DNA from: a bacterium
GTDB taxonomy: Bacteria; SZUA-79; Acidulodesulfobacterales; Acidulodesulfobacteraceae
DNA length: 64,000 nucleotides
Assembly: GCA_021845685.1 (NCBI GenBank)
Contig: JAJZVN010000001.1
Span: 1-64,000, forward strand
Reading direction: 5' to 3'
Part shown: in pieces, positions 24,102-36,419 of the stretch
Position numbering within the stretch: the first letter of the stretch is position 1
How the letters are laid out: the number at the start of each line of letters is the position of its first letter
Position numbers and translations under genes: made by a program
Notes under the pieces: generated by a model
Seen by the model: only the letters and a program-made list of their open reading frames with translations
Database searches by the model: none
Told to the model about the DNA's origin: nothing

Positions 24102-26084
24102 ATGGCACGAATAGGGGTATTTGTTTGCTGGTGCGGTTCTAATATTGCAGGAACCGTAGACGTTAAAAGAGTTGCCGAAGAGGCGGCTAAAATTCCGGGT
24201 GTTGTTGAGGCTATTGATTACAAATATATGTGTTCGGACCCGGGGCAAAACGCTTTCAGAAATATGATTAAAGATAAAAATCTTACAGGGGTCGTGCTGG
24301 CTGCCTGCTCACCGCATATGCATGAAAATACATTCAGAAAAGCGGCAATAAAAGAAGGTCTCAATCCTTATTTTGTTGAAATAGCAAATATTAGAGAACA
24401 AGTCTCGTGGGTTCATGAAGATAAAGAAAAAGCAACTGAAAAAGCTATAGATTTATTAAAAATGATGGTGGAAAAAGTAAAGAGAAATAAACCTATTGAA
24501 GATGTAAGGGTACCTCTCACAAAAAAAGCTCTTGTTATAGGCGGCGGCATTTCAGGGATACAGGCTGCTTTAGATATAGCTAACGGCGGAGTTGAAGTTA
24601 TTCTTGTTGAGAAAGAGCCTTCTATCGGCGGAAAAATGATACAGCTTGATGAAACATTTCCTACTCTTGACTGTTCAAGCTGCATAATGACGCCTAAGAT
24701 GGTTGAAGCGTATCAGCATCCTAATATAAAACTTTACACATATTCAGAATTAGAAGATGTATCCGGCTACATAGGAAATTTCAATGTAAAAATAAGAAAG
24801 AAAGCAAGAAGCATCGTTGAGAAAGACTGTACAGGGTGCGGAGATTGCTGGAATGCCTGTCCTATGCATAAAAATGTAAAAAGTGAATTTAACGTGAATT
24901 TATCGGAAAGAACAGCTATTTATGTTCCTTTTCCTCAGGCCGTTCCATTAATTCCGGTTATAGATAGAAGCGTGTGTTTGCATTATAAAAAGGGCGGTAA
25001 ATGTCAAAAATGTTATGACGCTTGCGGACCAAAATGTATAAATTTTGATTTGCAGGATGAAATAATAGAAGAAAAAGTAGGCGCTATTGTTGCGGCTACA
25101 GGCTATGATCTGATGGAAAATTCTTTATACGGTGAATATGGCTACGGTCAATTTAAAGATGTAGTTTCAGGTCTGCAGTTTGAAAGGCTTTTATCTGCTT
25201 CAGGGCCTACAGAAGGTGTTATCAAAAGACCATCCGACGGCAAAACTCCTGAAACCATTGTTTTTATTCAATGCGTAGGCTCAAGAGATCCTGAAAAGGG
25301 CGTTCCTTATTGTTCAAAAGTTTGTTGTATGTATACTGCCAAGCATGCGAAATTATTTGCGCATAAAGTTCATGGATCTCAAAGTTATGTTTTTTATATA
25401 GATATTAGAGCTACAAGCAAAGGATATGAAGAATTTGTTAGAAGTACAATGGAAAATGACGGAGCTATATATTTAAGAGGCAGAGTTTCTAAAATATATG
25501 AGAACGGCGGTAAGCTAATTGTCAAAGGCGCCGATACATTGTCTGGAAATCAGGTTGAAATTGCTGCCGATATGGTTGTTCTTGCAACCGGCGTTATTCC
25601 CAAAAAAGGTTCTGATAAAATGGCGCAAATGCTTGGTATCTCTTATGATAAATATGGTTTTTATACCGAGTCTCATCCTAAGCTTCGTCCTGCCGAATCT
25701 TCAACTGCAGGAATATATCTTGCAGGAATGGCTCAGGGACCGCGCGATATTCCTGAATCTGTTGTTTCAGGTTCTGCCGCAGCATCTAAAATACTCGGAT
25801 TGTTTTCAAAAAGCGAGTATGAAGTTGAAGGAACGATTGCTTCGGTTAACAAGACGACTTGTGTAGGATGCTTTTATTGCCAGAGAGTTTGTGCTTATAG
25901 CGCAATAAGCAAAGAAGAAGTTAAAGATAGAAGCGGCAATGTTTTAAAGGTTGTTGCAAATGTTAATTCAGGATTATGCACAGGATGCGGTGCATGCGTA
26001 AATGCATGTTTTTCTAAATCTATTGATGTAAGAGGATTTATGGACGAGCAGATTTTTGCAGAAATAAAATCTCTTGCCGTATAA
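24102..26084 (+). CDS. hdrA: heterodisulfide reductase-like subunit A (bifurcating FAD protein)
   Basis: This is the flavoprotein core where electron bifurcation takes place in Hdr complexes. The N-terminal domain has the Cys-rich FVCWCGSN. The FAD site GGGISGIQAALDIA follows at about residue 147. LDCSSCIMTPKM and CTGCGDCWNACP precede an extra Cys group (GGKCQKCYDACGPKC). Two C-terminal ferredoxin clusters are CVGCFYCQRVC and CTGCGACVNAC. Length 660 aa is typical of the single-module HdrA. GAGGT precedes the ATG. With FloxA-D next to it, NAD(P)H is the likely electron donor, with ferredoxin and a disulfide as acceptors. Confidence 0.94.
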   Translation: MARIGVFVCWCGSNIAGTVDVKRVAEEAAKIPGVVEAIDYKYMCSDPGQNAFRNMIKDKNLTGVVLAACSPHMHENTFRKAAIKEGLNPYFVEIANIREQVSWVHEDKEKATEKAIDLLKMMVEKVKRNKPIEDVRVPLTKKALVIGGGISGIQAALDIANGGVEVILVEKEPSIGGKMIQLDETFPTLDCSSCIMTPKMVEAYQHPNIKLYTYSELEDVSGYIGNFNVKIRKKARSIVEKDCTGCGDCWNACPMHKNVKSEFNVNLSERTAIYVPFPQAVPLIPVIDRSVCLHYKKGGKCQKCYDACGPKCINFDLQDEIIEEKVGAIVAATGYDLMENSLYGEYGYGQFKDVVSGLQFERLLSASGPTEGVIKRPSDGKTPETIVFIQCVGSRDPEKGVPYCSKVCCMYTAKHAKLFAHKVHGSQSYVFYIDIRATSKGYEEFVRSTMENDGAIYLRGRVSKIYENGGKLIVKGADTLSGNQVEIAADMVVLATGVIPKKGSDKMAQMLGISYDKYGFYTESHPKLRPAESSTAGIYLAGMAQGPRDIPESVVSGSAAASKILGLFSKSEYEVEGTIASVNKTTCVGCFYCQRVCAYSAISKEEVKDRSGNVLKVVANVNSGLCTGCGACVNACFSKSIDVRGFMDEQIFAEIKSLAV

Positions 26085-26248
26085 TATATATAAAATATAT
26101 AAACAATTGAAAGTGGAAATCTGCTGCAATCTAGTATTTCTTAAAGCATTGCGGTAAATTTAAAAATCTTTATAGGCAATTTTTAGCAATGTATTAATAA
26201 ACATAAATAATTGATTAAATTATTAAATACACTTTGGAGCTAATTTAG

Positions 26249-26731
26249 ATGGAAAATAACAATACCGAAAAAAATCAAAATTTTTCCGATAATTCAAACA
26301 AAGGAATTACTGCACAAAATAAAGAACCTCGCATTATTGCTTTTGTCTGCAATTGGTGCACATATAACGGAGCTGATCTAGCAGGCACAAGCAGAATGAA
26401 ATATGCCGATAATGTTAGAGTAATTAAACTTCCATGCACCGGCAGGATTGATCCGCTGTTTGTTGTAGAGGCATTTAAAAAAGGCGCAAAAGGAGTATTG
26501 GTTTCGGGATGTCATCCCGGTGATTGCCATTATACCAGCGGTAATTACCATTCAAGAAGAAAATATACTGCATTCAGAGATTTATTAAGTTATCTTGGAG
26601 TTGACATAAGTAGAGTAGAATTTTCATGGATAAGTGCTTCCGAAGGCAATAAATGGGTTTCGGTTATAAATGATTTTACAAATAAAATCAAATCATTGCC
26701 GAATAATAGCGATATATTTAGCAAAAAATAA
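26249..26731 (+). CDS. floxD: MvhD/FloxD-like [2Fe-2S] linker subunit
   Basis: This subunit carries electrons from the donor module to HdrA. The MvhD signature is clear: FVCNWCTYNGADLAG at about residues 32-46, LPCTGRIDPLFV, and SGCHPGDCHY, giving the conserved cysteines for a [2Fe-2S] cluster. Length 160 aa includes an Asn-rich N-terminal tail of about 30 residues that is not part of the fold. TTTGGAGC lies just before the ATG. Position directly after hdrA and before the other Flox genes identifies it as FloxD rather than a hydrogenase-linked MvhD. Confidence 0.92.
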   Translation: MENNNTEKNQNFSDNSNKGITAQNKEPRIIAFVCNWCTYNGADLAGTSRMKYADNVRVIKLPCTGRIDPLFVVEAFKKGAKGVLVSGCHPGDCHYTSGNYHSRRKYTAFRDLLSYLGVDISRVEFSWISASEGNKWVSVINDFTNKIKSLPNNSDIFSKK

Positions 26732-26760
26732 AATTTATACTTTATAAGGATATATATTTT

Positions 26761-27663
26761 ATGGAAAAAATGAATGAAAAGATTCAAAATATTGCAAAAG
26801 AGCTTTTAGAAAACAAAGAGGTAAATTTAATTATCGGTTTTACTAAAGGTTCTAATCCATTAAGGATGCGGTCAGTGTTTATTACTGACCCGAAAGATGT
26901 GTCTAAACTTTCTTTCAATTCCCACTGTGTTCAAGATTTAGCAGTATTCTTAAAAAAACCTGAAGTAAAAAAATTTGGAAAAATTGGAATTGTCGTAAAA
27001 GGCTGCGATGAAAAAGCTGTTAACACCTTAATTCAAGAATATCAACTTTCAAGAGATAATATAAAAATTATAGGTCTTGAATGTCACGGAGTTATCAAGC
27101 AAAATTTGGCTGATAAAGGAGAAAATTCTCTAAATCAATCTACTGTTTATGATAAATGTTTGGCATGCGAAGTTCATACACCAACATTGTATGATTATCT
27201 TGTTGAATCGGATGAGCAGGCTTTTGAAATTAACGGTAATAGTATTAAACCTTATGCAAAAATAGAAGAGCTTGATTTAATGAGCGCAGAAGAAAGAAAC
27301 GTTTTTTGGCAGAACGAATTTGAAAAATGCATTAAATGTTATGCATGCAGGCAGGTATGTCCGTTATGCTATTGCACGAGATGTATCGTTGAAAAAAATA
27401 CGCCTCAATGGATTGAAACTAATATTGAAGAAACCGGTAATGCGCAGTGGAATATGATAAGAGCATACCATCTTTCAGGAAGATGTATCGGCTGCGGAGA
27501 ATGTGAAAGAGCATGCCCAGTCAATATTCCTCTTATGCTTATAAATGAAAAAATGGCGAGGGACACTTTTGAGAAATTTGGTTATAAATCAGGTATTGAT
27601 ATAAATGCAAAACCTGTTTTCGGCACGTTTGATATTAACGATTTCAACGACTTTATAAAATAA
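26761..27663 (+). CDS. floxC: FloxC-like iron-sulfur protein
   Basis: This electron-transfer subunit resembles the beta subunit of coenzyme F420-reducing enzymes in its N-terminal half (GFTKGSNPLRMR, GIVVKGCDEKAV). Its C-terminal half is a two-cluster ferredoxin domain: CIKCYACRQVCPLCYCTRC at about residues 191-209 and CIGCGECERACP at about 242-253. Length is 300 aa. AAGGA precedes the ATG. It sits between floxD and floxB. The F420-like fold does not imply F420 use here, since a NAD(P)H module (FloxA) is present. Confidence 0.88.
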   Translation: MEKMNEKIQNIAKELLENKEVNLIIGFTKGSNPLRMRSVFITDPKDVSKLSFNSHCVQDLAVFLKKPEVKKFGKIGIVVKGCDEKAVNTLIQEYQLSRDNIKIIGLECHGVIKQNLADKGENSLNQSTVYDKCLACEVHTPTLYDYLVESDEQAFEINGNSIKPYAKIEELDLMSAEERNVFWQNEFEKCIKCYACRQVCPLCYCTRCIVEKNTPQWIETNIEETGNAQWNMIRAYHLSGRCIGCGECERACPVNIPLMLINEKMARDTFEKFGYKSGIDINAKPVFGTFDINDFNDFIK

Positions 27664-27713
27664 TTAATAAAATAAATAATAGATAAAATAGATTTTACTT
27701 GATGGAGAAGATA

Positions 27714-28814
27714 ATGGAAGAAAAATATTATGAAATTTCTTCGGAAAATATAAAAAAATTTGTAAATAACTTGATAGAGCAGCATAATGAAGTCATTGCG
27801 CCAAAAGATAAAGACGGTGACACATTTTACGATAAAATCAATAATTTTGAAGATGCGGATTTAAATATTTTACTTCCTAAACTGTCTTTTAAAGAATATT
27901 TGCTTCCAAAAACGGAAACATTATTTGAATATTCTATTTCCGGCAGTAATATCAATATTTGCGATCCTTTAGAAAATATAGACGTTAATACTAATACAAA
28001 TAATAGCGGTAAAGCAGCTGATTGCAGCGACAATATTAGCCAAAAAAGAATAATATTCGGTTCTAGACCGTGCGATGCGGGTGCAGGTCCTATTATGGAA
28101 AAAGTTTTTAACTGGGATTATAAAGATGAATTTTTTAACGAAAGGTTTAAAAATTTATATCTAATATCTATTGCATGCGATAAACCCGATAATTATTGTT
28201 TTTGCACGGAAGTCCAATTATCTCCCGAAAGCTCTTACGGCTCGGATATTTTGCTTAAAAAAGGCGGGAGCGGATATTATGCAAAGGTAATTACAGAAAA
28301 AGGAATGGAACTTATTAATTCAAATTCTGAAAATACCAGTTTATTTAAAGAAATTTCAAAAGATAAATTTCCTGCAGATAAAGATTGGAAAGCTGCGTTT
28401 GACATTAAAAAAACACAGAGTTTCCTTGATAAAAATTTCACAAGCAATTTTTTTCAAGAAAAGTTTTTATCATGTATAGGATGCGGCGTATGTACATATA
28501 CTTGTCCGACTTGTCATTGTTTTGATATTCAGGATGAAGGAACGAATGAGAAAGGTAAAAGAATTAGAAATTGGGACTCCTGCCAGTTCGGAATATTTAC
28601 ATTGCATACATCAGGGCATAATCCGAGGGTAACGCAGGGCGACAGATACAGGCAAAGGCTGATGCATAAATTTAAAATATATAACGAAAAATTTAATAAA
28701 TATTTATGCGTAGGATGCGGCAGATGTTCGAGAAATTGTCCTGAGGATATTGATTTAAAAGAAATAACCGCAGAATTGTCATTAATGGAAAATTCTAATA
28801 AACAAGCTGAATAA
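27714..28814 (+). CDS. floxB: FloxB-like iron-sulfur protein (AsrA-related)
   Basis: This 366-aa ferredoxin-type subunit resembles the A subunit of anaerobic sulfite reductase, with FGSRPCDAGAG and CxxC-rich segments. Two clusters are CIGCGVCTYTCPTCHC and CVGCGRCSRNCPEDID near the C-terminus. The frame is open from a TTG at 27699, but the ATG at 27714 is preceded by GGAGAAG at ideal spacing, so MEEKYYEIS is chosen as the start. It would relay electrons from the FAD subunit FloxA to FloxC/HdrA. A short Asn-rich insert lies near residues 90-110. Confidence 0.88.
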   Translation: MEEKYYEISSENIKKFVNNLIEQHNEVIAPKDKDGDTFYDKINNFEDADLNILLPKLSFKEYLLPKTETLFEYSISGSNINICDPLENIDVNTNTNNSGKAADCSDNISQKRIIFGSRPCDAGAGPIMEKVFNWDYKDEFFNERFKNLYLISIACDKPDNYCFCTEVQLSPESSYGSDILLKKGGSGYYAKVITEKGMELINSNSENTSLFKEISKDKFPADKDWKAAFDIKKTQSFLDKNFTSNFFQEKFLSCIGCGVCTYTCPTCHCFDIQDEGTNEKGKRIRNWDSCQFGIFTLHTSGHNPRVTQGDRYRQRLMHKFKIYNEKFNKYLCVGCGRCSRNCPEDIDLKEITAELSLMENSNKQAE

Positions 28815-29040
28815 TAAACTGATTAAATAAAAATAACTAATCAATTTGTTAATTCATTAATTGAATTAACAAAATAAACAAACTAATAATACAATTAATT
28901 AAGTAACTAAACAATAAACTAACTAAATTAATAAATTCATAAAATAATTAATTAATTAACTAAATAATAAAATATATAAACAATTAATTAATTAAATAAT
29001 ACTAAATATATAATATATATAATCATAATAAGGACTTGAA

Positions 29041-29862
29041 ATGGAAAACATTTATTTGCCTAAATTAGCAGTTATTAAAGAAATAATTCAAGAAACGCCG
29101 GATACAAAAACAGTTCGGCTTACAGTTGATGGCGGAATTATTGATTATTTGCCCGGACAATTCGGAGAATTTTCTTGTATAGGGGAAGGAGAATCTACAT
29201 TCGGTTTTGCTTCATCGCCTTTAAGAAAAGATTTTTTTGAATTTAGTTTCAGAACAGCCGGACGTGCAACTACAGGCATTAACGGTTTAAATGTCGGCGA
29301 TAATATTGGATTTAGAGGACCTTATGGAAATTTTTTTAATACCGATAAAATGAAAGGCAAGGATATTATATTTATCGGGGGCGGTATAGGAATGGCTCCT
29401 GTTAAATCAATTCTTGAATACTGCATAGATGAAAGAAATAATTACGGCAAAATAACAGTATTATACGGCGCAAGAACCGTTATGGATTTAATGTATAAAA
29501 ACGGAATTGAGGAATGGAAAGCTTCGCCTAATACCGATGTCGTAATTACGGTAGATCCCGGCGGAGAGACGCCAGACTGGAAAGGCAGAGTGGGTTTTGT
29601 CCCAACCATACTTGAAGAATTGCCTGTTAAAGGAAATAATGCAATAGCGGTAGTCTGCGGTCCTCCTATTATGATAAAATTTGTTTTAAAATCCTTAGAA
29701 AAAATGGGATTTAATAAAGAAGATATCATAACGACTCTCGAGAACAGAATGAAATGCGGACTTGGTAAATGCGGCAGATGCAATATAGGCAGTGTTTATG
29801 TTTGTAAAGAGGGTCCTGTTTTTACCGCTAAAGACCTAGAATCTTTGCCTAACGATTTCTAA
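29041..29862 (+). CDS. floxA: FloxA-like NAD(P)H/FAD oxidoreductase
   Basis: This ferredoxin-NADP reductase-fold protein oxidises NAD(P)H for the Hdr-Flox complex and resembles AsrB. An N-terminal FAD barrel (YLPGQFGEFS, GPYGNFF) is followed by the NAD-binding domain with IFIGGGIGMAPVKS. The C-terminal cysteines CGLGKCGRC plus a later Cys in VYVCKEG bind a [2Fe-2S] cluster, as in dihydroorotate dehydrogenase electron-transfer subunits. Length 273 aa is normal. AAGGA precedes the ATG. It follows floxB after 226 nt of AT-rich sequence and is the last gene, closed by a strong terminator. Confidence 0.91.
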   Translation: MENIYLPKLAVIKEIIQETPDTKTVRLTVDGGIIDYLPGQFGEFSCIGEGESTFGFASSPLRKDFFEFSFRTAGRATTGINGLNVGDNIGFRGPYGNFFNTDKMKGKDIIFIGGGIGMAPVKSILEYCIDERNNYGKITVLYGARTVMDLMYKNGIEEWKASPNTDVVITVDPGGETPDWKGRVGFVPTILEELPVKGNNAIAVVCGPPIMIKFVLKSLEKMGFNKEDIITTLENRMKCGLGKCGRCNIGSVYVCKEGPVFTAKDLESLPNDF

Positions 29863-29933: not shown

Positions 29934-30239
29934 TTATAGCTTTTAATTTATTTGCAAATTATTTTTTATATAAGTATAATATTTATAAAATATTCTAATT
30001 ATCTATACTTGCAAACTAATCTAATCTGAAACAAATTAGGCTAAATCAAACTAATAAATTAAACTAAACTAATAAACTAAATTAAATTAAATTAATAAAC
30101 TAAATCAAACTAATAAATTAAACTAAACTAATAAGCTAAATTAAATTAAATTAAATTAAATTAATAAACTAAATCAAACTAATAAATTACACTAAACTGA
30201 ACTGAACTAAACTAAACTAAAATTTAATAGAATAAAAAT
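29934..30239. repeat. degenerate pentanucleotide array upstream of thrS
   Basis: From about 30015 to 30225 the sequence is a run of AAACT, AAATT and AATAA words, with a larger repeat in which ATAAACTAAATCAAACTAAT recurs. It is non-coding and almost free of G. No promoter or T-box-like leader could be recognised before thrS. Confidence 0.7.
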
Positions 30240-32189
30240 ATGAGACTACTTCTTATTCATGCCGATAATTTCAGCTATGGTCTGACAGGAAAAACCCCGA
30301 TGGCTGAAAAAATTAATACAGATGTTCATGAAAGTAATTCTTTTAACGAAGCGTTAGTAGTTTTTTCTACGATTGAAAGTTTAGATGCTGAAAGGCCCGA
30401 TGAAATTATATACTCTGCTTTTCTTGAAATTAAGAAACTATATGATGAACTAAAACCTCAGGTGATCATAATATATCCATATGCACATTTATCTAATGAT
30501 TTAGGAAGACCGTCGGATGCCGTTAAAATTTTAGATGAGCTTAAAAATAAACTTGAAAATGAATTGTCTGATGTATGCATAGAAAGGGCTCCTTTCGGCT
30601 GGTATAAAAGTTTTTCAATTGCATGTAAAGGTCATCCCTTAAGCGAATCTTCAAGGCATATAATATCTTCATCGGAAAATAGAATAGATAACAAAGATAT
30701 TAAACAAGCAAAATCTAAAAATAGAGAGGATATTGCAAAGGAAGTTGAAAGTAATTTTTTTATTTTAAATCCTGACGGCAGTGAAATATTAATTGATATT
30801 AATGATAAAAAAATTTTGGATAGCGAAGCGTTAAACAATTACCCTTCTTTAAAAAAATTTATAGCGTTTGAAGAATTTAAAGTAAAAGAAGGCGTTGAAC
30901 CTCCTTCTGTTGAGGCAATGCGTCGTCTTGAAATAGCAGACCATGAAGAAAACTCAGACTCAGGACATTTAAGACTCTATCCAAAAGGAACATTGCTGTA
31001 TAAACTTATTTCAGATTGGGCTGAAGAGGTTGCATTAGTTAAGCTTAAGTGTATGGAGATAGAAACTCCATTGATATATAACTGGAATAAACCGGATATA
31101 AAAGGACAGGGAGAGTCTTTTCACGAAAGACATTACACTGTAATGGTACCTGATGAAAAGATGAAAGATGATTCAGTTTCAGGCGGTTTTGACAGGACAA
31201 AAGAGTTTGTGCTTAGATTTGCGGGAGATTTCGGTTTATTTTCTATGCTGAAAGATACGAAGATAAGTTATAAACAGCTGCCTTTAAGATTCTACGAATA
31301 TTCAAAAAGTTTTAGATATGAAAGAAGCGGCGAATTATCAGGATTAAGAAGACTAAGAGCCTTTACGATGCCCGACATACATAGTTTTTGTCTTAACATT
31401 GAAGAGGGATTCAATGAATATCAGGAACTTTATAGGCAATATTCGGACTTAGCCGACGCTATTAATATTGAATATGCTGTTGTATTCAGAATAGTTCAGG
31501 AATACTACGATAAATATAAAGACAAATTAGTTAGTCTTTTAAAATATTCAAAAAAACCTGCTTTAATTGAAACTTTATCTAAAATGAAGCATTATTGGGC
31601 ATTAAAACATGAATTTCAAGGTATAGATTCTATAGGCAGCTCATGCCAGTTATCTACGGTTCAGCTTGATGTTGCAGATGCTGAAAGATACGGCATTAAT
31701 TTTGTAAATGAAAAAGGCGAAAAAGAAGGCTGTATAATTTGCCATTCTTCCGTCGGGACAATTGAACGCTGGATGTATTTGCTATTAGAAGAATCTCTTA
31801 AAAAAGAGATTCCCGTTTTACCCCTATGGTTAAGCGTTACTCAAGTTAGAATTATCCCTGTTTCGGAAAAATATATAGAATATTGTATAGAGTTAATGAA
31901 AAATATTGCTTCTTTTAAAATAAGAGCAGATATTGACGATAGGGCTTTTAGTATGGGTAAGAAAATTATGTATGCGGAAGAGGAATGGGTTCCGTATATT
32001 TTAGTCGTGGGCGAAAAAGAAAAAACCTCAAATTTATTATCCGTAAGAAACAGATATCAAAATAGAAAAACTATAAATATGACTAAAGACTCGCTTGTTA
32101 AAGAAATCTTAGATCAGACAAAAGATTTGCCTTTCAGAAATCTTAATGTTGCAGATACGCTGTCAAAAAGACCGATATTTGTAGGATAG
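30240..32189 (+). CDS. thrS: threonyl-tRNA synthetase, archaeal-type
   Basis: This class II synthetase charges tRNA-Thr. The N-terminus MRLLLIHADNFSYG and the next 140 or so residues match the D-aminoacyl-tRNA deacylase-like editing domain of archaeal ThrRS, not the TGS plus HxxxH editing domains of bacterial ThrRS. The catalytic core follows (HLRLYPKGTLLY, GLRRLRAFTMPDIHSFC, GSSCQLSTVQLDV), then the C-terminal anticodon domain. Length is 649 aa. It stands alone behind an AT-rich repeat array with no clear Shine-Dalgarno sequence. A bacterial-type second copy elsewhere cannot be excluded. The archaeal relationship is recognised from sequence style and suggests ancient transfer. Confidence 0.9.
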   Translation: MRLLLIHADNFSYGLTGKTPMAEKINTDVHESNSFNEALVVFSTIESLDAERPDEIIYSAFLEIKKLYDELKPQVIIIYPYAHLSNDLGRPSDAVKILDELKNKLENELSDVCIERAPFGWYKSFSIACKGHPLSESSRHIISSSENRIDNKDIKQAKSKNREDIAKEVESNFFILNPDGSEILIDINDKKILDSEALNNYPSLKKFIAFEEFKVKEGVEPPSVEAMRRLEIADHEENSDSGHLRLYPKGTLLYKLISDWAEEVALVKLKCMEIETPLIYNWNKPDIKGQGESFHERHYTVMVPDEKMKDDSVSGGFDRTKEFVLRFAGDFGLFSMLKDTKISYKQLPLRFYEYSKSFRYERSGELSGLRRLRAFTMPDIHSFCLNIEEGFNEYQELYRQYSDLADAINIEYAVVFRIVQEYYDKYKDKLVSLLKYSKKPALIETLSKMKHYWALKHEFQGIDSIGSSCQLSTVQLDVADAERYGINFVNEKGEKEGCIICHSSVGTIERWMYLLLEESLKKEIPVLPLWLSVTQVRIIPVSEKYIEYCIELMKNIASFKIRADIDDRAFSMGKKIMYAEEEWVPYILVVGEKEKTSNLLSVRNRYQNRKTINMTKDSLVKEILDQTKDLPFRNLNVADTLSKRPIFVG

Positions 32190-32411: not shown

Positions 32412-33698
32412 GTGGAAGAGAATACAGGAAATACAGAAAATGCTAATTTAGAGCAAGTTCAAGATTTATTGTTAATTGAAGAAATTTCTCCTATCAAAAG
32501 AAAAGTAAAAATAAAAATAGATGCCGAAAAAGTTAGCAGCCTTCTTGAAAAAAAATTAAAAGAAACCGCAAAAAAAGCTACTATAAAAGGTTTTAGACCG
32601 GGGAAAGCCCCAATTTTAGTAATTAAAAAATTTTATGAAGCCGAGCTTTTAGAAGAAGTTAGAATGGATATTTTAAATGATGATTTTAAGAAATTAATAA
32701 GCGATAAAAATATTATGCTTGCAGGAAATCCTTCAGTTGAAAGAGAATTATCGGCCGATACTTATGAAATAGGATTTGAAGTTTTGCCAAATATTTCAAG
32801 CGTTAATTTAGATTTAAAAATCAAAGAAATTAAAAAAAGAGAAATTACCGACAAAGTTTTAGAAGATGAAATTAATTTTTTACTTGAAAGATTGGCTGAA
32901 CCTGTCAAATTAAACCTTGATGAAACTATTAACGATAAAGACCGATATTTTGTAAATATTGATTATGTTACGGTAGATTCCGAAAATAATACGATAGACA
33001 GCGCCAAAGATTATTCTTTAAGCATTAATTCCGGTGCTTCGGATAAAGATTTAGAATCTTCATTTATAGGGAAAAAGATAGGTGACGGTTTTGAATTTAT
33101 AGATAAAGAAAAAGGCGTTACAATAAAAGGAATAATTAAGAATATTGAAAAGAAAGTTCTGCCTGCTTTAGATAACAATATACTCAAGAATTTTGGTGAT
33201 TTTGAAAATATAGACGATTTTAAGAAAAAATTAAAGGAAGAGATTGAAAGTTATGAAGAAAAAAAACAAAAGCAAGCGCTCAAAGAAGCAATAACCCAAG
33301 AGTTAATTAAAATTAACCCTATAGAGATACCTGAAAGCATGATAGAAGAGGATGCGAAGGCGAGATTTGATAATTTAATGAAAGACGAAAAATATAAAAA
33401 TGCCAATGATAGCGATAAACAAAAAAAAGATATATTTAATATACTTAAAGTTATGGCAAAAAAAGATATTATTTCTTTTCTTTTAATAGAAAATATAGCA
33501 AAACTTGAAAAAATTAAGGTTGACGATAAAGATATAGAAAACTTTTATCTTCAGACATCTAAAGAATCAGGGTTAGAATTTGAAGAAGTCAAAAAATTAT
33601 ACGCAAATGATAAAGATAATTATGAAAATCTAAAAAATCATATGCTTGAAGAAAAGATATTTGATTTTATTATTGCAAATAAATTATCTTATGTATAA
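32412..33698 (+). CDS. tig: trigger factor
   Basis: This is a ribosome-associated chaperone with peptidyl-prolyl isomerase activity. The N-terminal ribosome-binding domain has the signature GFRPGKAP near residue 60. A divergent FKBP-like domain follows at about residues 160-250, then a long helical C-terminal domain. Length 428 aa is normal. The start is GTG at 32412, preceded by CGGAGG with 8-nt spacing; no nearby ATG fits. It leads the tig-clpP-clpX order that is conserved in many bacteria, linking nascent-chain folding to ClpXP proteolysis. Confidence 0.94.
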   Translation: MEENTGNTENANLEQVQDLLLIEEISPIKRKVKIKIDAEKVSSLLEKKLKETAKKATIKGFRPGKAPILVIKKFYEAELLEEVRMDILNDDFKKLISDKNIMLAGNPSVERELSADTYEIGFEVLPNISSVNLDLKIKEIKKREITDKVLEDEINFLLERLAEPVKLNLDETINDKDRYFVNIDYVTVDSENNTIDSAKDYSLSINSGASDKDLESSFIGKKIGDGFEFIDKEKGVTIKGIIKNIEKKVLPALDNNILKNFGDFENIDDFKKKLKEEIESYEEKKQKQALKEAITQELIKINPIEIPESMIEEDAKARFDNLMKDEKYKNANDSDKQKKDIFNILKVMAKKDIISFLLIENIAKLEKIKVDDKDIENFYLQTSKESGLEFEEVKKLYANDKDNYENLKNHMLEEKIFDFIIANKLSYV

Positions 33699-33862
33699 GA
33701 TATAGATATATTAATATATTATATACAGCATAAATATAATATATTTGTTTGGTATAAAATTCTTTTTTTATTAAAGTAAAATATATTATATAGATATATA
33801 TAATATATCTATATAATATAATTTGTGTAATTTAAAAAATAATTAATCAGGAGATAATGGGC

Positions 33863-34492
33863 ATGTCATTGATTCCAATGGTTGTAGAACAAACGCACAG
33901 GGGCGAAAGGGCTTATGATATATATTCACGATTATTAAAAGACAGGATTATTTTTATAGGCGAAGCAATTGACGATACGTTTGCAAATCTTATAATAGCC
34001 CAGCTGTTATTTTTAGAATCCGAAGATCCTGAAAAAGATATAAGTATTTATATTAATTCACCGGGCGGTGTTATAACTTCGGGACTTGCTATTTATGATA
34101 CTATGCAATATATCAGACCTGATGTTTCAACTCTTTGCATGGGGCAAGCCGCAAGTATGGGGGCGGTATTGCTTGCTGCGGGAACAAAAGGGAAAAGATT
34201 TGCTTTACCTCACGCAAGAATAATGATACATCAGCCATCGGGAGGATTCCAGGGGCAGGCTACCGATATTGATATACAGGCGCGTGAAATTTTAAGAATG
34301 AGAGAAGAATTAAACTCTATTCTGTCTTTCCATACTTCGCAGTCTATTGAAAAAATTAAGGAAGATGCCGAAAGAGATTTCTATATGAGCGGTACGCAAA
34401 GCGTGGAATATGGCATTATAGATAAAGTGGTCGAAAAAAAGGATATAAATAAGGATAAAATTAAAGAAATAAATAGCAAAGATAAAAAATAA
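33863..34492 (+). CDS. clpP: ATP-dependent Clp protease proteolytic subunit ClpP
   Basis: This is the serine protease core of ClpXP. The catalytic Ser lies in GQAASMGA, His in IMIHQPSGG and Asp in AERDFYM. Length 209 aa is typical. An ATG six bases upstream (33857) is possible, but AGGAG at 33849-33853 is spaced 9 nt from the ATG at 33863 and only 3 nt from the earlier one, so [10 protein letters not shown] is preferred. The clpX gene follows after 13 nt. The C-terminus ends in a Lys-rich tail. Confidence 0.95.
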
Positions 34493-34505
34493 AGAGGTAA
34501 TTAAA

Positions 34506-35843
34506 ATGGCTAAAAAAAATAGTAACGATGATAGCAGCGGGAGAGAATTATACTGTTCTTTTTGCGGAAAATCGCAGGATGAGGTTAAAAAACTTATAGC
34601 GGGTCCATCGGTTTATATATGCGATGAATGTATTGAATTATGCAATGATATTATTTCTGAAGAAATTCATGAACCTGCGGAAGTCAAATCAAAAGATGAA
34701 GAACGGATTTACAAGCCGGTTGAAATTAAAGATTTTTTAGACCAGTATGTGATAGGGCAGGAAAGAGCCAAGAAGATACTTTCGGTCGCCGTATATAATC
34801 ATTATAAAAGAATTGAATATAATGATGCATTGAAAAAAAATAAAAGCTTAAAAGAGCCAAAAGATAAGAATCCGCTTCAAGATGTTGAAATGCAAAAAAG
34901 CAATATTTTGTTAATAGGTCCTACGGGAAGCGGTAAAACATTATTAGCCGAAACTCTTGCAAGAATGTTTGAACTTCCCTTCGCGATTGCCGATGCAACA
35001 AGTTTAACTGAAGCAGGTTATGTAGGCGAGGATGTAGAAAGCATTATTCTATCGCTTCTTCAGAATGCCGATTATGATGTTGAAAGGGCTCAAAAAGGCA
35101 TAATATATATAGATGAAATTGATAAAATAGCAAAAAAATCCGATAATGTTTCTATTACAAGAGACGTCTCAGGAGAAGGCGTTCAGCAGGCTCTTTTAAA
35201 AATTATAGAAGGCACAATTGCCAATGTGCCGCCTAAAGGCGGAAGAAAACATCCACATCAGGAATTTTTAAGAATAGACACAAGTAATATTCTTTTTATA
35301 TGCGGCGGAGCTTTTACGGGTCTTGATAAGATAATTGAAAAAAGAATGAATTCACAGCCTATAGGATTTACCGTAAGCGCAAAAAGAGAAAAACAAACAT
35401 ATTCTTATGATATTATTAAGAAAGTTGAAGCAAGAGATTTACTAAGATTCGGTCTTATACCTGAATTTATCGGCAGACTTCCGGTTATAGCCGCATTAGA
35501 AGAACTAGACGAAAAAGCGCTTGTAGAAATTTTAACAAAACCTAAGAATGCTTTAATAAAACAGTATCAAAAACTCTTTGATATGGAAAGTGTTAAGCTT
35601 AAATTTACGGATTCGGCTATTAAAGAAATTACTAAACAGGCGATCACCCACGGTTCAGGAGCAAGAGGGTTAAGATCTATTCTTGAGTCTATTATGCTTG
35701 ATGTCATGTATGAAATACCGACCGATTCTTCTATTAAAGAATGTGTCATTAATGACGATGTAATATTAAATAATTCAATGCCGATTATTCTTTATGAAAA
35801 AGATATGGATTCGGATAGTAAAGCAGGAAGTAGTTCTAAATAA
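34506..35843 (+). CDS. clpX: ATP-dependent Clp protease ATPase subunit ClpX
   Basis: This AAA+ unfoldase feeds substrates to ClpP. The N-terminal zinc-binding domain has four Cys (CSFCGKSQ and CDECIELC). Walker A GPTGSGKT and Walker [12 protein letters not shown] are present, along with the ClpP-contacting IGF loop (QPIGFTV) and a sensor region with [12 protein letters not shown]. Length 445 aa is slightly long because of a short charged insert near residue 110. It follows clpP by 13 nt with an AGAGG ribosome binding site and is probably co-transcribed. Confidence 0.96.
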
Positions 35844-35944
35844 AGGTAATTCTAAATAATAATAATATTTAAATAATAATAATAAGTTAAACGAATAATA
35901 TTTATATAGTATAAAAAAAAATTTTATATAATTAAAGATTTTTA

Positions 35945-35973
35945 TTGACATATTTAGAATAAACATATATATA
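35945..35973 (+). promoter_or_regulatory. promoter of the HU gene
   Basis: TTGACA at 35945-35950, 17-nt spacer and TATATA at 35968-35973. It predicts a leader of about 155 nt before the HU ATG at 36138. That leader contains a repeated TTTTACTTTA(T/A)TTAGTTT segment near 36026-36070. Confidence 0.65.
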
Positions 35974-36137
35974 TTAAATATATTTATTAAAGTGCCGATG
36001 TTAAAGTATCTAAAAGAAAAACTATTTTACTTTAGTTTTATTAGTTTTACTTTATTAGTTTTACTTTAATAATTCAGTAATTTTAATAATGCAGTAAAAT
36101 TAAATAAATCATTTTTTTATTACGAAGGAGGAATTTT

Positions 36138-36419
36138 ATGACAAAAGCTGAGTTAGTAGACGCAATTGCAAAGTCATCTAAACTTACAAAAGCTGACAGC
36201 GAAAAGGCATTAAATGCAACAGTTGAATCGGTCGTAGCCGCACTTAAAAAAGGCGACAGCGTTAGATTAGTCGGATTTGGAACTTTTGAAGTTGTTAAAC
36301 GCGCAGCAAGAAAAGGCAGAAATCCTCAGACAGGCAAAGAAATTCAGATTAAAGCATCTAAATCGCCTAAGTTTAAGCCTGGCAAGACTTTTAAAGAAGC
36401 TGTCAATACAGGAAAATAA
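36138..36419 (+). CDS. hup: HU-family DNA-binding protein
   Basis: This nucleoid protein bends and compacts DNA. The 93-aa sequence begins MTKAELVDAIAKSSKL, has GFGTFEVVKRAARKGRNP with the DNA-intercalating arm (RNPQTGKEI), and ends FKPGKTFKEAVN, all characteristic of HU/IHF. It has a strong ribosome binding site (AAGGAGG) 8 nt before the ATG, the best in the window, which suggests high expression. Base composition of the gene is less AT-skewed than its neighbours, consistent with a highly expressed core gene. Confidence 0.97.
   Translation: MTKAELVDAIAKSSKLTKADSEKALNATVESVVAALKKGDSVRLVGFGTFEVVKRAARKGRNPQTGKEIQIKASKSPKFKPGKTFKEAVNTGK

Follow-up and report, generated by a model that had tools for sequence, protein, structure and literature searches.

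A threonyl-tRNA synthetase of archaeal type as the probable sole ThrRS of the bacterial phylum SZUA-79

We analysed a window of 64,000 nucleotides (contig JAJZVN010000001.1 of assembly GCA_021845685.1) from a bacterium of the Acidulodesulfobacterales / SZUA-79, with a focus on thrS at positions 30240-32189, the gene for a threonyl-tRNA synthetase (ThrRS). The sole ThrRS of this phylum is very probably an enzyme of the archaeal type (ThrRS-R) that was gained by the ancestor of the phylum, the bacterial thrS being lost. Candidatus Acidulodesulfobacterales was described from acid mine drainage (PMC6776010). Candidatus Acididesulfobacter diazotrophicus is a near relative (97% identity), and the isolate SZUA-79 is another member.

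Domain make-up, distribution and phylogeny

The gene and its domains are as follows.

30240..32189, + strand: thrS, archaeal-type (ThrRS-R) threonyl-tRNA synthetase, 649 aa (open reading frame with Pfam, NCBIfam and structure matches)
30240..30662, + strand: DTD-like editing domain (PF08915), residues 1-141 (Pfam and alignment; residue roles from PMC4491819)
31197..31793, + strand: class II catalytic core (PF00587), residues 320-518 (Pfam)
31842..32114, + strand: anticodon-binding domain (PF03129), residues 535-625 (Pfam)

The open reading frame (ORF) fills 30240-32189 exactly, from an ATG start to a stop codon at its end. The initial annotation had read it as an archaeal-type ThrRS in a bacterial genome, with an editing domain of about 145 residues; both the coordinates and this boundary were correct, and the profile searches confirmed the assignment. 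We observed that PF08915 matched residues 1-141 with an E value of 6e-43 (146.7 bits, against a Pfam cut-off of 30.2), while neither TGS (PF02824) nor tRNA_SAD (PF07973) was found by Pfam in the 649 residues. The archaeal ThrRS model PRK03991 (NF003068, NCBIfam) scored the protein at 641.9 bits (cut-off 484), and on the general ThrRS model TIGR00418 the protein scored just below that model's own cut-off. Crystallised archaeal editing domains aligned end to end with the N-terminus (E down to 2e-29).

Like the archaeal ThrRS-R enzymes covered by PRK03991, the protein thus has the DTD-like domain, the class II core and the anticodon-binding domain without TGS or SAD; it differs from them by an Asp at a zinc-binding Cys position. 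The bacterial enzymes (E. coli; S. aureus, 1NYQ) are homologous in the core and anticodon-binding domain, but have TGS, a SAD editing domain and a Cys in the zinc site. With neither TGS nor SAD, and no grouping with bacterial ThrRS, the protein is not of the bacterial type (ThrRS-C). It shares its editing domain family with the free-standing ThrRS-ed proteins, but in this protein it is joined to a complete class II core. Domain content, the NF003068 cut-off, tree position and editing-site residues all point to ThrRS-R.

Statements on whole genomes rest on profile searches of the 30 genomes of the phylum. PF08915 was present in 27/30 genomes, including 19/19 of good quality and 6/6 genera, and the three genomes that were without it are 59-78% complete. 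A second, bacterial ThrRS was not found in any of the 30 genomes (TIGR00418; no further near-full-length match). The leftover TIGR00418 matches stayed below 70 bits, covered only part of the model and lay in ORFs of lengths fitting ProRS, SerRS, HisRS and AlaRS; the SAD domain (PF07973) was confined to ORFs of AlaRS length. The replacement of a core gene, as proposed initially, is supported by this genome-wide check and by the fixed synteny. The archaeal-type ThrRS is accordingly placed, on gene content, in the common ancestor of the phylum, since it is the sole ThrRS of all the good genomes and lies in one conserved gene order (given below). In one assembly (G006) the gene is split over two contigs. 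Another (G025) has two archaeal-type copies (L010, L028) on two contigs, which may reflect mixed strains (4% contamination).

Three trees of the protein were built, two of them quick and one careful, and they were in agreement. The ThrRS sequences of the phylum formed a single clade (100/100), nested in an archaeal clade (100/99) of Thermoplasmatota- and Sigynarchaeota-type sequences together with an archaeon from SI047. Identity to archaeal sequences reached 54%, against 25-29% to the bacterial-type ThrRS aligned. The Thermoplasmatota-/Sigynarchaeota-type enzymes (L054, L055, L319 and kin) belong to the same subclade, at about 50-54% identity, and have the RFAGDFG motif with the Asp; their hosts, however, are archaea, whereas the bacterial enzymes form a long-stemmed clade of their own. 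The transfer from archaea claimed by the initial annotation was supported, and its direction, from archaea to bacteria, is inferred from the nesting of the phylum within archaeal ThrRS. The opposite direction, in which archaea would have obtained their ThrRS from this phylum, could draw on the poorly resolved deepest split around the phylum (88/48), but the phylum makes up a single shallow clade surrounded by many lineages of archaea, more of which branch outside it, and we consider such a reversal very unlikely.

The archaeon from SI047 (G293) carries a chimera in which the DTD-like editing domain is attached to a ThrRS core of bacterial type, and also a second ThrRS, an archaeal-type core without editing domain that is among the closest relatives of the core studied here (L068, L056/L077).

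Three points weigh against a replacement by an archaeal ThrRS-R as described. The sister group, and with it the archaeal donor branch, is weakly supported (88/48). All genomes of the phylum are metagenome-assembled genomes (MAGs), so that the absence of a bacterial thrS depends on assembly, although the 19 good genomes agree. Lastly, the Asp found where a zinc ligand is expected may be a sign of a changed chemistry.

Acquisitions by other bacteria

Outside the phylum, a broad sample yielded six genomes, from four families, whose sole ThrRS was a full-length archaeal-type enzyme; in one of these families (f69), PF08915 was present in 19/20 genomes. Since several bacterial families own such an enzyme, one old bacterial acquisition, or a bacterial ancestor, might lie behind all of them. 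The trees spoke against this. Families f66 and f69 branched elsewhere among the archaea; uniting them with the phylum cost 330 log-likelihood units (p-AU 3e-32), so that a shared origin was rejected by the approximately unbiased (AU) test. For f120 and f206 the rejection was weaker (36 units, p-AU 0.026), as these sequences sit on a long branch. A single bacterial origin is therefore highly improbable in our view. Because these joint clades were rejected, strongly in one case and weakly in the other, the trees indicate at least two bacterial acquisitions of archaeal-type ThrRS, and probably three.

The editing domain was also seen in other contexts. In two bacterial genomes it was fused to the N-terminus of SepRS (L081 in G148, identified by TIGR00470 at 454 bits; L083 in G285, identified by similarity); one such bacterial fusion had been noted earlier, in ADurb.Bin236 (PMC5424206). 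Free-standing PF08915 domains, or domains in odd ORFs, occurred in further bacterial loci (L084 in G285, L087, L088, L089, L090, L091, L092, L093, L094). With the exception of G285, these bacteria have a bacterial-type ThrRS elsewhere in the genome, and this coexistence suggests that free-standing PF08915 domains act in trans-editing outside archaea.

Gene neighbourhood

The genes around thrS are as follows.

24102..29862, + strand: conserved upstream redox genes, HdrA-like, MvhD-like, FdhB-like, 4Fe-4S and FNR-like (named by sequence reading)
32412..36419, + strand: conserved downstream genes tig, clpP, clpX and HU (trigger factor by search; ClpP, ClpX and HU by sequence reading)

We observed the same ten-gene order (HdrA-like, MvhD-like, FdhB-like, 4Fe-4S, FNR-like, thrS, tig, clpP, clpX, HU) in 24/24 loci of the phylum, as far as the contig ends. 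That an archaeal contig was binned with a bacterium might be suspected, as the host MAG consists of 199 contigs and archaea live in the same habitat, but the chance of this is negligible: the contig carries a bacterial tig and genes named as clpP, clpX and HU, contamination of the host MAG is estimated at 0.58%, and above all the gene order recurs across independent assemblies, the synteny by which we rejected a contaminant origin.

The stretch from the FNR-like gene to thrS contains a degenerate AAACT-type repeat array (30013-30221); in L031, from a relative within the genus, another repeat is found there. No RNA leader of a known family was found upstream of thrS with Rfam, whose sole match in the window was a tRNA-Val.

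Metal site, editing domain and tRNA-Thr

ThrRS recognizes threonine via a zinc bound by Cys-His-His (PMC7373986; PMC4389257). The corresponding positions, from the alignment, are given here.

31227..31229, + strand: Asp330, position of the zinc-binding Cys in other ThrRS
31380..31382, + strand: His381, second zinc-ligand position, conserved
31743..31745, + strand: His502, third zinc-ligand position, conserved

In place of the usual triad the enzyme thus has Asp330-His381-His502. The Asp was seen in 27/27 sequences of the phylum, in 33 archaeal relatives and in both f120/f206 sequences, and Cys occupied the position in 93 other archaeal sequences and in all 21 of f66/f69. As the Asp is shared with the 33 archaeal relatives, Cys is not a defining mark of ThrRS-R, and the change from Cys to Asp arrived with the transferred subclade. 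Archaeal ThrRS is resistant to borrelidin and has a Met and a Ser at two key contact positions (PMC4389257). The alignment of the motif regions placed Met377 and Ser504 at these positions, and borrelidin resistance is predicted for the enzyme. We tentatively propose, as a reading that we find plausible though somewhat short of probable, that threonine is recognized through an Asp-His-His metal site, instead of Cys-His-His, in the ThrRS-R subclade that spans Thermoplasmatota-/Asgard-like archaea and this bacterial phylum as a whole, and that the phylum is borrelidin-resistant via this archaeal-style pocket.

As to proofreading, also raised in the initial annotation, a different editing domain is clearly present and its active site is intact. 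Residues P80, A82, H83, Y120, K121 and E134 of the P. abyssi editing site correspond to P80, A82, H83, Y122, K123 and E136 here, and these six were invariant in 27/27 sequences of the phylum. The P. abyssi work traced specificity and catalysis to the main chain, a positioned water and the tRNA 2'-OH; it also showed that bacterial tRNA-Thr is edited in vitro by archaeal editing domains (PMC4491819). Because of the intact P. abyssi-type site and this in vitro activity, we infer that the enzyme would edit Ser-tRNA-Thr.

A changed tRNA-Thr identity, which had also been suggested, was not supported. The host tRNA-Thr genes (GGT, TGT, CGT) have G1-C72, C2-G71 and U73, and the tRNA-Thr of the host and of the phylum have bacterial bodies. 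These elements are among those listed for archaeal ThrRS; in both domains the identity sets comprise acceptor stem pairs and the anticodon, U73 being a determinant only in Haloferax among the archaea studied (PMC9976931). The same three elements were common to the phylum and most control bacteria with an ordinary ThrRS. U73 was read in the tRNA-Thr genes of 12/13 bacteria without an archaeal-type synthetase (the exception being G039), and we rejected it as an archaeal-like co-adaptation of the host. Since the host elements are ordinary bacterial ones, the tRNA genes give no visible sign that tRNA identity had to be retuned for the replacement of ThrRS.

In four genomes the 3' half of tRNA-Thr(CGT) recurs by itself in additional copies (L309-L315 in G000, L258 in G001, L241 in G007, L242 in G011), which are likely to be the att repeats of elements that have integrated at this tRNA gene. 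In G000, positions 990-2123 of a 3.3-kb contig (C141) are taken up by some twelve or more divergent tRNA genes in tandem (L210); this array is probably of mobile-element origin, and its tRNA-Thr also has U73.

Together, these observations make the following course of events very probable. The ancestor of the phylum would have acquired ThrRS-R from an archaeon near the Thermoplasmatota-/Asgard-like branch of the family, retained it at a site flanked by the FNR-like gene and tig, and discarded the bacterial thrS. The class II core would charge tRNA-Thr, and the DTD-like domain would remove misattached serine via the tRNA 2'-OH, as in the archaeal enzymes. The replacement may have been easy, because bacterial and archaeal tRNA-Thr have their main identity elements in common.

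ThrRS-R has been stated to occur only in some archaeal lineages (PMC3191353), and later work traced its transfers among archaea (PMC4427996); conclusions on ancient or extinct donors have been drawn from it as an archaea-only enzyme (PMC3191353, PMC4427996). Synthetases are known to have been transferred between domains; for ThrRS-R as the sole ThrRS of a bacterial phylum, no report was found in the literature searched, most subscription papers lying outside it. An entire bacterial phylum would thus depend on ThrRS-R, with separate gains in at least one further bacterial group (of two families) and probably two such groups. The phylum offers a natural test of whether the archaeal editing domain can act in vivo on a bacterial tRNA, and suggests that shared tRNA-Thr identity elements may have eased the replacement of ThrRS. 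It also suggests a metal-site variant with Asp; if the proposal on this site is true, a site regarded as conserved would have been rewired in nature to Asp-His-His.
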